This document shows, piece by piece, positions 24,953 through 34,152 of a stretch of DNA of 64,000 nucleotides. The notes beneath the pieces were generated by a model, which did not search any database, was not told the DNA's origin, and saw nothing but the letters and a program-made list of their open reading frames with translations. Source of the DNA: Actinobacteria bacterium 69-20 (lineage in GTDB: Bacteria > Actinomycetota > Actinomycetes > Mycobacteriales > Nakamurellaceae); NCBI GenBank assembly GCA_001897425.1, contig MKSW01000003.1, positions 144,772 through 208,771 on the forward strand, in the 5' to 3' direction. Position 1 is the first letter of the stretch. Each line of letters begins with the position of its first letter. A program made the translations under genes and the position numbers.

Positions 24953-25267
<315 letters not shown>

Positions 25268-28466: not shown

Positions 28467-30840
<2,374 letters not shown>

Positions 30841-30871
30841 GCTAGGAGGCTAGGGCCGCTCCCCGCGACCG

Positions 30872-30931
30872 CGCGCCACTTCCTCGACTGTGCGCCCCAT
30901 GCTCGTGGCGCGGCGCGGAGGAAGTGGCGCG
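30872..30931. terminator. Large inverted repeat after atpD (possible terminator)
   Basis: Perfect 14-bp arms at 30872-30885 and 30918-30931 (CGCGCCACTTCCTC and its complement) are 32 nt apart. A further CCCCAT/ATGGGG pair lies around them (30895-30900 and 30942-30947). There is no U-run, so termination would be non-canonical. Confidence 0.5.
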
Positions 30932-31006
30932 GCGCCGGTGCATGGGGATCGTATGGGAGACCCGTAAACGGCGCCGACCGCGCCGGCCGGGGCGATCATG
31001 ATGGAG

Positions 31007-31021
31007 CGGTAGGTACTACCG
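31007..31021. promoter_or_regulatory. Palindrome just before the P450 gene (possible operator)
   Basis: CGGTAG-gta-CTACCG is a perfect dyad ending 14 bp before the P450 ATG, a position from which a bound dimeric repressor would block transcription or translation. Confidence 0.55.
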
Positions 31022-31035
31022 AGCCGAGGATCGCC

Positions 31036-32253
31036 ATGACGTCCAGTTCCCGCCCCTCGTCGGAGTCGGTGACCGTAGACCCATTCGTGCCGTTGCGCCG
31101 TACCGGACTGGACCCCGTGCCCGACCTAGCGGTCCTGCGGGCGCATGAACCCGTGCGGAAAGTCGAGTTCCCGTTCGGTATCGGTGCTTGGATCGTCTCG
31201 GACTACGAGCACACCAAGGCGGTGCTCGGTGATGCCGCGTCGTTCTCCAACGACTTCGGCAACCTCACCGGCGCAGTTCATGGCGCGGTGTCCGCGGAGC
31301 AGAACCCGGGCGGTCTCGGCATGGCAGACCCTCCGGCGCATACCCGGCTGCGGAAGATGCTGACCCCCGAATTCACTGCCCGGCGCCTGCAGCGTCTCGC
31401 CCCGCGCATCGGCGAGATCGTCGACCAATTGCTCGATGAGATGGAGTCTGCTGGGTCGCCCGCCGACCTGGTGCAGCATTTCGCAATGCCGTTGCCGTCA
31501 CTCGTCATCTGCGAGCTGTTGGGTGTTCCGTATCCGGATCGCGAGGCTTTCCGGAAGCTCTCCGGAGCGCGATTCGACATCTTCGGTGGCGCCGGCACCG
31601 GCCTGTCGGCGATCGGCGAGTCGTTGCAGTACATGCGTGGCCTGGTCGAGGCGCAGCGCCGTGAGCCGGGCGACGGTCTGCTAGGCAGACTGATCCGCGC
31701 CCACGGCGACGAGCTGGACGACGAGGAACTGGCCGGTCTGGCCGACGGCGTTCTCATCGGCGGCCACGAGACGACGGCGAGCATGCTGGCACTCGGCACT
31801 ATCGCGCTGCTGGAGAATCCCGATGCGGCCGCCGTTGTCCGCGATGGCGATGCGGCGGCGGTTCATGACGCGGTCGAGGAACTCTTGCGGTACTTGTCGG
31901 TCGTCCAGGTCGCCTTCCCCCGGTTCGCGCGTTCGGACATCGATATCGACGGGCAGCACATCGAGGCGGGCGACCTCGTGCTGTGCTCGCTGTCCGGCGC
32001 GGACCACGATGCGGCGCTCGGCGACGGCATGGACGGCTTGAAGGTGTCCCGGGCGTCGACCTCGCACCTCGCCTTCGGTCATGGCATTCACCGATGCGTC
32101 GGTTCCGAACTGGCCCGGATGGAACTCCGGATCGCATTCCCGGCGTTGCTGCGAGCGTTCCCCGGGCTCCGATTGGATGTCGCGCCCGCCGAGATCAGCT
32201 TTCACGAGTACTCGGTGGTGTTCGGCGTCGACGATCTGCCCGTTTCTTGGTAG
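31036..32253 (+). CDS. Cytochrome P450
   Basis: A 405-residue soluble bacterial P450. The heme-binding motif FGHGIHRCVG has its ligand at Cys354, the I-helix oxygen-activation motif is GGHETTASM near residue 245, and the ExxR is in EELLRYL. Substrate is unknown; no ferredoxin or reductase gene is adjacent. It lies between atpD and atpC, where no gene normally occurs. Its own palindrome and the inverted repeat before it suggest separate regulation. GAGG about 8 nt before ATG 31036 supports the start. Confidence 0.95.
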   Translation: MTSSSRPSSESVTVDPFVPLRRTGLDPVPDLAVLRAHEPVRKVEFPFGIGAWIVSDYEHTKAVLGDAASFSNDFGNLTGAVHGAVSAEQNPGGLGMADPPAHTRLRKMLTPEFTARRLQRLAPRIGEIVDQLLDEMESAGSPADLVQHFAMPLPSLVICELLGVPYPDREAFRKLSGARFDIFGGAGTGLSAIGESLQYMRGLVEAQRREPGDGLLGRLIRAHGDELDDEELAGLADGVLIGGHETTASMLALGTIALLENPDAAAVVRDGDAAAVHDAVEELLRYLSVVQVAFPRFARSDIDIDGQHIEAGDLVLCSLSGADHDAALGDGMDGLKVSRASTSHLAFGHGIHRCVGSELARMELRIAFPALLRAFPGLRLDVAPAEISFHEYSVVFGVDDLPVSW

Positions 32254-32319
32254 CGGTGCCGGGCAAAGCGCTCCTAGCGGGGCCGGGCAGGGCGCGCTGG
32301 TTGCGAAGCCTGGCGGCGG

Positions 32320-33084
32320 TCAGCCGAGCGGGAGACCGAACACCTCGAAGGCCGTACACGGGTGTCCGGCGAATCGATCGGCGTGGCGCATCACGAACGA
32401 CTGTCCGAGCGAATCCGGATCGGCGCCCGCCGCGCCCAAACCCGCCAGGTACGCCGCATGTGCCTTCAAGGACGCGATCCCGGCCGACACGGTGTCGGTC
32501 ACGTCCACCGCATGCGTCGGCTCCGGCGAGCCGGCCACGGCCGTGAAGCGCACGCCGGACCACGGCGCGAGCGGTGAGCTGTCGGCATCGACCAGGTCGC
32601 GGAAGATCCAGCGGTTCGCCGCGTCGCGCACGGCGTCCAGTACCGCGAGGCCGACCACCCGGTGGTCCGCCATGTTGAACGTGCCCGGACCGAAGGATTC
32701 GCGGTGATTGATGGTGAGGACCACCTCGGGGCGGTGCCGACGGATGGCCGCGGCGAACTCGCGGCGCAGCCGGAGCGCATCGTGGATGACGCCGTCCGGG
32801 TGATCAAGGAACTCCAGGGATGACACGCCCACGGCATCGCATGCCGCGCGCTGTTCCGCGACCCGCAGCGGGCGCACCGCGGCCGGATCCATCCCGTCGA
32901 TCCCTGCCTCGCCGCGGCTGGCGAGCAGATATCGCACCTCCTTGCCCTGCCCGGTCCAGCGGGCGACGGCCGCTGCGGCGCCGTACTCCATGTCGTCGGG
33001 GTGCGCGACGATCGCCAGTGCCGTCGACCAGTCCTCCGGCAGGGGGCGTAGCTGGGCCGTCTCGTCGTCGGATGCGTGCACCAT
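32320..33084 (-). CDS. PIG-L family deacetylase
   Basis: A 254-residue zinc-dependent N-acetylglucosaminyl deacetylase-fold protein. Zinc ligands are in AIVAHPDDMEYG and the distal ADHRVVG. Family members include MshB (mycothiol synthesis) and Mca (mycothiol-conjugate amidase); this protein is shorter than both (about 290-300 residues) and may be a different amidase. GGAAGGA 8 nt upstream supports ATG 33084. It is encoded against the atp genes, between the P450 gene and atpC. Confidence 0.9.
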   Translation of the reverse strand: MVHASDDETAQLRPLPEDWSTALAIVAHPDDMEYGAAAAVARWTGQGKEVRYLLASRGEAGIDGMDPAAVRPLRVAEQRAACDAVGVSSLEFLDHPDGVIHDALRLRREFAAAIRRHRPEVVLTINHRESFGPGTFNMADHRVVGLAVLDAVRDAANRWIFRDLVDADSSPLAPWSGVRFTAVAGSPEPTHAVDVTDTVSAGIASLKAHAAYLAGLGAAGADPDSLGQSFVMRHADRFAGHPCTAFEVFGLPLG

Positions 33085-33206
33085 GCCGCCGATCCTTCCA
33101 GATGCCGTGCGGGTGCGATCGAGCCGCAGCTGGGCCGCCGCTGAGCCATCACCGGGCCATCACCGAGCCGCCGCTGGGGGCCGCAGGGACCGCGCACCGG
33201 GTCGGA

Positions 33207-33212
33207 TAGACT
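33207..33212 (+). promoter_or_regulatory. -10 box in front of atpC
   Basis: TAGACT lies 5 nt before a micro-ORF ATG (33218) and 44 nt before the atpC GTG. It could be the independent promoter needed by the detached atpC. Confidence 0.5.
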
Positions 33213-33217
33213 GGGCG

Positions 33218-33244
33218 ATGTTCTCATTCGGTCGGGCGGGGTAG
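33218..33244 (+). CDS. Eight-codon micro-ORF upstream of atpC
   Basis: ATG-TTC-TCA-TTC-GGT-CGG-GCG-GGG-TAG (MFSFGRAG) starts 5 nt after a -10 box and stops 11 nt before the atpC GTG, its stop merging with the atpC ribosome-binding site TAGGAG. It may be a leaderless leader peptide coupling ribosomes to atpC. It could be chance. Confidence 0.3.
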   Translation: MFSFGRAG

Positions 33245-33255
33245 GAGCGGCGCTG

Positions 33256-33648
33256 GTGGCTGATATGCAGGTCGACCTGGTGGCGGTCGAACGGGCCGTC
33301 TGGTCCGGTCGGGCCGACATGGTCGTCGCTCGTACCGTCGACGGCGATATCGGCATCATGGCCGGGCACGCCCCCTTGCTCGCGGAGTTGAAGGAAGGGT
33401 TCGCGGCGCGGATCCAGCAGCCGGACGGCACCATCTTCGGCGTTGCGGTGCATGGCGGATTCCTGTCCGTGACGAGCGACGGTGTGTCGATCCTCGCCGA
33501 GTCCGCGCAGATGGAGGACGAGATCGACATCAAACGCGCGCGCGAGATCTACGAACGCGCCAAGGCCGTGGGCACCGACTCCGCCGAAGCAGAGGCCGAA
33601 CTGAGACGGGCGCGCGCCCAGCTTCTGGCGACCGGCCAAGAGATTTAG
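33256..33648 (+). CDS. atpC: ATP synthase subunit epsilon, detached from the operon
   Basis: A 130-residue epsilon subunit: an N-terminal beta-sandwich (MQVDLVAVERAVWSG, DIGIMAGHAPLLAEL) and C-terminal helices (EIDIKRAREIYERAK...AEAEAELRRARAQL). It completes F1 and couples or inhibits the rotor. GTAGGAG 9 nt before GTG 33256 fixes the start. It lies 2.4 kb downstream of atpD, behind a P450 gene and a reverse-strand gene, so it cannot share the atp transcript in the usual way. The DUF2550 gene that normally follows it is still next. Confidence 0.95.
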   Translation: MADMQVDLVAVERAVWSGRADMVVARTVDGDIGIMAGHAPLLAELKEGFAARIQQPDGTIFGVAVHGGFLSVTSDGVSILAESAQMEDEIDIKRAREIYERAKAVGTDSAEAEAELRRARAQLLATGQEI

Positions 33649-33681: not shown

Positions 33682-34152
33682 ATGGAGCTGGCAGAGGTCT
33701 TGGGACTGGTCGTTCTGCTGGGCATCATTGCGCTGATCGTCCTGGTGGTGTTGCGTCGCGCGATCTTGGCGCGCGCCGGCAGCTTCGACGTCAGCTGGCG
33801 CCGCAGGCGGGCCGCCGACGATCGTGGCTGGCTCCTCGGTCAGGCTCGCTACCGCGGAGGACAGCTTTGTCTGTACCGCGCCTTCTCGGTGCTGCCCACC
33901 GCAGCGCTGATACTGAATCGGGACGACTTCACGTTGGGCCCGGTCCGGCCGCCCATCGGCGCCGAGCCCGACTTGCTGCCTCCCGGTGTGGTGATCGTGC
34001 CGGGCGCGGCCACCGGCATCGCGATCGAGATGGCTCTGTCCCCCGATGCATTGACCGCACTTCGGTCCTGGGTCGAGTCGCGTCCGCCGGGGATGCGTCG
34101 GCCGGACCGCGAGCGGTTGGACGGCAGCGTGGGAGACGCGCCACCGCGGTAG
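33682..34152 (+). CDS. DUF2550 membrane-anchored protein
   Basis: About 156 residues: one N-terminal membrane helix (about 6-26) then a soluble domain with SFDVSWRRR and ARYRGGQLCLYR, the DUF2550 signature (Rv1312 in M. tuberculosis). Its steady place after atpC in Mycobacteriales is kept here. Function unknown. A GTG three bases upstream is an alternative start. Confidence 0.85.
   Translation: MELAEVLGLVVLLGIIALIVLVVLRRAILARAGSFDVSWRRRRAADDRGWLLGQARYRGGQLCLYRAFSVLPTAALILNRDDFTLGPVRPPIGAEPDLLPPGVVIVPGAATGIAIEMALSPDALTALRSWVESRPPGMRRPDRERLDGSVGDAPPR

Follow-up and report, generated by a model that had tools for sequence, protein, structure and literature searches.

An interrupted atpD-atpC seam in Nakamurella and a probable two-unit organization of its ATP synthase genes

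The ATP synthase complex contains three beta subunits and one epsilon subunit, and epsilon couples and restrains the enzyme. In the genome of Actinobacteria bacterium 69-20, 2415 nt separate the beta gene (atpD) from the epsilon gene (atpC), and this gap holds two genes, for a cytochrome P450 and a PIG-L deacetylase. The locus raises the question whether a single operon was broken here by insertion or whether the two genes came to lie between transcription units that already existed. We consider it probable, judging from sequence comparisons, that the atp genes of Nakamurella form two transcription units and that P450 and PIG-L settled later as passengers in the seam.

Gene order and distribution of the inserted genes

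The window, i.e., the whole stretch of 64,000 nucleotides that was analyzed, lies on contig C3 of a 4.48-Mb draft genome (43 contigs, 98% complete) of the genus Nakamurella, which NCBI places in the order Nakamurellales. The gene order and coordinates of the initial annotation match the open reading frame (ORF) table, the sequence, and Pfam (Table 1). The DUF2550 gene begins 33 nt after atpC, with which it probably forms one transcription unit; the same gene follows atpC in 28 of 30 named actinobacteria. A second atpC elsewhere, considered in the initial annotation, was not found, as PF02823 has a single match in the draft genome. In GC content, the P450 gene (0.666) and the PIG-L gene (0.711) are like the window (0.698).

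Table 1. Features of the atpD-atpC region (window coordinates)
Feature	Position	Strand	Evidence and remarks
Subunits a, b, delta, alpha, gamma	5' of atpD, usual order		Pfam
c subunit	25007-25267		86 aa; by eye only
gamma subunit	28467-29402
atpD (beta subunit), final gene of the main atp operon	29407-30840	+	PF00006/PF02874/PF22919; start codon picked by eye
68-nt palindrome (stem-loop), proposed operon terminator	30868-30935	+	fold -43.8 kcal/mol, z -3.67
Cytochrome P450, 405 aa	31036-32253	+	PF00067 (1.4e-29)
PIG-L/LmbE-type deacetylase, 254 aa	32320-33084	-	PF02585 (6e-26)
Proposed atpC promoter: -10-like element TAGACT	33207-33212	+	TANNNT search; kept in G003
atpC, epsilon subunit, 130 aa, GTG start	33256-33648	+	PF02823 (3.4e-25)
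DUF2550 gene	33682-34152	+	PF10739 (1.8e-31)

Epsilon was searched for in 81 genomes and found in 79, and the atpC locus was read in all 79. The atpD-atpC gap was measured in 75 of them; left out were the sister genome G003 and G079, with no atpD on the fetched stretch, and G023 and G036, where the contig stops before atpD could appear. The Nakamurella set comprises 17 genomes, including that of the window. The 2.4 kb that the initial annotation took to be inserted are present here and absent from 14 of the 16 other members of the genus, which have 107 to 683 nt and no large gene between atpD and atpC. Another member, G002, has a gap of 3032 nt with a 932-aa reverse ORF. Matches to P450 or PIG-L in the atpC stretches of the 79 genomes are limited to the window genome and G003, an independent assembly with the same P450-PIG-L-atpC order, so that the arrangement is not one that all relatives share; the insertion of these two genes is lineage-limited. 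G002 also carries, near position 415,200 of its contig C1 (L169:10085-10474), a further intact epsilon gene with 72% identity to that of the window, in whose fetched surroundings (L033, L169) queries for a, alpha, beta, and DUF2550 had no match.

In G003, NmrA-type genes rather than atpD lie upstream of P450, and atpD is on another contig. Its homology to the window ends about 11 nt past atpD on one contig and restarts at window position 30927 on another, and the DNA seen between the two homologous parts consists of short repeats, a TetR-like ORF (by eye), and the NmrA-type genes. Both contig ends fall in NmrA-like coding sequence, which suggests that the two contigs may adjoin there. The P450 and PIG-L genes are intact in both species, at 91% and 94% identity. 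Insertion by a mobile element is conceivable, but no sign of it was seen; neither inserted gene is a recombinase by Pfam. The repeat list holds no convincing flanking pair around the insert, whose target site is blurred since G003 differs at 30851-30927. Short direct repeats were observed directly after atpD in G003 (L160) and in the atpD-atpC gap of G001 (L032) and G015 (L046).

The P450 matches the Pfam family and has E282, R285, and C354 invariant in a 16-row alignment, which we take to be the ExxR and heme-Cys motifs; an I-helix motif was also assigned. A relative of at least 58% identity is found in 15 of the 16 other genus members (all those of G011 are distant), the nearest apart from G003 being those of G006 and G001 (64%). 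In a tree of 60 rows, the window and G003 proteins fall inside a seven-row, all-Nakamurella set (97/91), which disfavors a recent transfer from outside the genus, and the tree thus points to P450 as genus-resident; the 17 genus rows do not form one clade (four label changes). P450 neighborhoods differ between species, and in five of six single-contig genus genomes the gene lies 0.8 to 2.6 Mb from atpC, in the sixth 30 kb; in G008 the relative is on contig C21 (6877-8049). The deacetylase matches Pfam PIG-L, and its translation reads AHPDD, presumably the PIG-L deacetylase motif. Its nearest solved chain is 5bmo (LnmX, E 1.5e-63), and its nearest genus relative after G003 is that of G016 (70%). 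A travelling P450 and PIG-L pair was considered and rejected, as a PIG-L relative occurs in the fetched flanks of only 1 of 80 named P450 loci (L236, 51% identity) and the nearest genus relatives of the two genes differ, G003 aside. Before P450, at 31007-31021, lies a short palindrome, CGGTAG-GTA-CTACCG, whose arms are kept and whose center is changed in G003; as an operator it was rejected, CGGTAG-N3-CTACCG being no commoner than the control in the window genome or G003 (2 versus 2).

Promoter-like elements and hairpins at the seam

TANNNT is the actinobacterial -10 element. It was searched for in the 150 nt before atpC, with the expectation taken from dinucleotide shuffles, a test that is weak for any single genome and strong only in number. 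The element was found in 16 of 17 Nakamurella genomes, where 5.4 were expected, and in the exception, G002, TAGACT lies at -156, just outside the 150 nt. A stricter -10 pattern, picked after the sequences were seen, was present in 13 of 17 (1.4 expected). Controls stayed close to expectation, with 2 of 16 before atpD in the genus (1.35 expected) and 2 of the 17 short-gap genomes that were long enough for the test, out of 18 selected by hand (2.16 expected). In the window, TAGACT starts 49 nt before atpC, within a final stretch of 66 nt that differs from G003 at two places, while large deletions distinguish the two species further upstream. A consensus scan for two-hexamer promoters in 30800-33300 found none, so the candidate has the TANNNT -10 of a sigma-A type promoter and no recognizable -35 hexamer. 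The earlier proposal that atpC has its own promoter is thus backed by a promoter-like element; the further proposal that the insertion created the separate start and altered regulation is not supported, because 14 of the 16 positive genomes carry the -10-like element with no large inserted gene, and most of these 14 also have a stable hairpin after atpD.

The palindrome after atpD begins 28 nt past the stop codon, and its stem-loop at 30868-30935 has the stability and placement of an intrinsic terminator; the U-tract of such a terminator is lacking, the consensus scan of 30800-33300 having returned no U-tailed candidate. Similar palindromes (75 to 80% identity) occur elsewhere in the window genome at C22:203957, C6:23464, and C9:97517, two of them 58 to 59 nt after the end of a plus-strand ORF and one 35 nt after that of a minus-strand ORF (ORFs called mechanically). 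BLAST with the 68 nt found nothing in the other 16 Nakamurella genomes, and a repeat family was rejected because the arm pattern with one mismatch did not exceed the control in number (19 versus 42). Measured as the best 56-nt fold after atpD with a mark of z < -3, a hairpin is present in 13 of 16 Nakamurella genomes tested, the exceptions being G001, G009, and G015. For G003, run separately over the 130 nt that follow atpD, no hairpin stood out (z +1.0).

Taken together, these features suggest a first unit running from atpB to atpD, which in most species would be closed by the stem-loop, and a second unit, atpC-DUF2550, which would start from its own -10 element. The genus-resident P450 and PIG-L would have settled between them in the window species and its closest sister, splitting the genes on the map and not a transcript, and atpC-DUF2550 would most likely have been a separate unit before they arrived. 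Since the insertion would have fallen between two units, it would have cost little. This reading draws on the gene order, the sister species, the recurrence of the -10-like element and of the hairpins, and the presence of other genes in the seam of other lineages; we infer from these that transcription ends at the hairpins and starts at the -10 elements, and that the seam contributes to setting epsilon apart from beta. Transcribing atpC separately could be one of the routes by which the cell arrives at three beta per epsilon. In genomes with an uninterrupted seam, atpC may be served both by its own promoter and by transcripts running on from atpD.

The seam in other actinobacteria

Across the 75 genomes (families labeled f1 to f16), TANNNT precedes atpC in 45 of the 48 whose gap is at least 100 nt versus 16.2 expected from shuffles, and in 4 of the 27 whose gap is shorter versus 7.5 expected; these genomes are related and not independent cases, which precludes a literal reading of any p value. 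The element is present in every measured genome of f4 (3), f14 (7), f15 (6), and f16 (6), and all but one of these 22 also have a hairpin of z < -3. Both features occur together in three of six f9 genomes, f12 has hairpins in four of four and no TANNNT, and f11 and f13 have TANNNT in three of three and no hairpin of z < -3. In f2, f3, f5, and f7 (gaps of 1 to 111 nt), TANNNT was found in 1 of 20. Among the 30 named genomes, 13 have the element, including Amycolatopsis, Saccharopolyspora, Saccharomonospora, Kutzneria, and both Streptomyces. Ten lack the element at a gap of -1 to 30 nt (Mycobacterium and Mycolicibacterium, four in all; two each of Nocardia and Pseudonocardia; Smaragdicoccus; Actinomycetospora), and seven further ones have a gap of 11 to 77 nt and no TANNNT. 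In 5 of the 30, no atpD lies within 1.49 kb of atpC.

As the initial annotation supposed, atpD and atpC are more often adjacent than not, with a gap below 580 nt in 55 of 75 genomes, though adjacency need not mean one transcript. In the other 20 the gap is at least 580 nt, and a mechanical scan found an ORF of at least 94 aa in 19 of them; the gap of G015 consists mainly of short repeats. The interruption is thus not peculiar to the window genome, as several other families have genes of other kinds at this place: all measured f15 and f16 genomes, single genomes of f9, f11, f13, and f14, and Kibdelosporangium, Allokutzneria, Umezawaea, and Actinokineospora. As in the window, atpD and atpC are apart and TANNNT precedes atpC; unlike in the window, the genes between them are LCP-like, a small f16 ORF, GH3-like, a sigma-factor-like pair, or HIT-like (named by eye). 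The contents differ between lineages, which suggests that genes came into the seam on several occasions. In G079 (f15, L167), no atpD match was found within about 12 kb upstream of atpC-DUF2550, and atpC is preceded, at a distance of a few hundred nucleotides, by a CRP-like ORF (by eye).

It is conceivable, and we offer it tentatively, that the terminator-promoter seam before atpC is an ancient means of regulation in many actinobacterial families, by which the cell sets epsilon, and with it coupling or ATPase restraint, apart from the rest of ATP synthase, that this seam is absent from Mycobacterium and Nocardia, and that it is a recurrent landing site for unrelated genes. If epsilon is transcribed apart in Nakamurella and many Pseudonocardiaceae and within the operon in Mycobacterium and Nocardia, findings on how epsilon is regulated would not be simply transferable between these groups, and the seam would offer a natural comparison of routes to three beta per epsilon.

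Alternative explanations and comparison with known atp operons

The reading of the initial annotation, a single atpB-to-atpC operon broken by insertion after which atpC gained a new promoter and epsilon regulation changed, would agree with the gene order in the window, with the tight atpD-atpC junction in Mycobacterium and Nocardia, and with published single-operon accounts for Streptomyces (PMC4895711) and Corynebacterium (PMC3917460), as far as the passages drawn on here go. Against it stands the -10-like element in the 14 uninterrupted genus members and in other families, which makes this reading improbable. It is also unlikely that atpC still owes much of its message to read-through from atpD and P450 over the antisense PIG-L gene. 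Such read-through would fit the shared direction of P450, atpD, and atpC, the lack of a U-tailed terminator in the scan of 30800-33300, and the lack of a stable hairpin after atpD in G003; yet a transcript would have to pass the stable hairpin of the window and the 765 bp of the opposing gene to reach an atpC that has a -10-like element before it. The reverse PIG-L gene and TAGACT together would argue against one atpB-to-atpC transcript in the window.

A mis-assembly that joined atpD to P450 we regard as very unlikely. The join is known from one draft only, and G003 has other DNA beside both atpD and P450, but the join lies inside a contig of 376,896 bases, and the order P450-PIG-L-atpC recurs independently in G003, on a contig that carries no atpD. 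It is hardly credible that P450 and PIG-L are functionally tied to ATP synthase and kept in place for co-regulation: both genes are intact and well conserved in the two species, yet P450 relatives lie elsewhere in other species, the pair stands at atpC in only 2 of the 79 atpC stretches, and the other seam inserts are different genes. We know of no tie of either gene to ATP synthase. The two-unit reading is left as the probable one, with our confidence in it reduced by the published operon accounts.

In the passages considered from these accounts, AtpB to AtpC of S. coelicolor is called one operon, with ribosome profiles proportional to subunit numbers (PMC4895711), and a 7.5-kb atpBEFHAGDC transcript is reported for C. 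glutamicum (PMC3917460), an early paper on the C. glutamicum atp transcript having been retracted (PMC3709692). A standard complete atp unit is predicted in 78.6% of Actinobacteria in the part of PMC5709465 drawn on. The top-ranked results of a literature search included no paper on separate atpC transcription in actinobacteria.

Compared with the standard atpBEFHAGDC operon, the genes from a to beta and their order are the same in the window, and epsilon lies downstream on the same strand. However, atpC does not directly follow atpD, as it does in that single operon; it stands 2.4 kb apart, with a reverse-strand gene in between and a promoter-like element of its own. The window split, which sets epsilon and DUF2550 apart from all other atp genes, is not among the splits listed in the passages of the published accounts drawn on here; what those known cases would have in common with the arrangement proposed for Nakamurella is the splitting of atp transcription units as a lineage trait.
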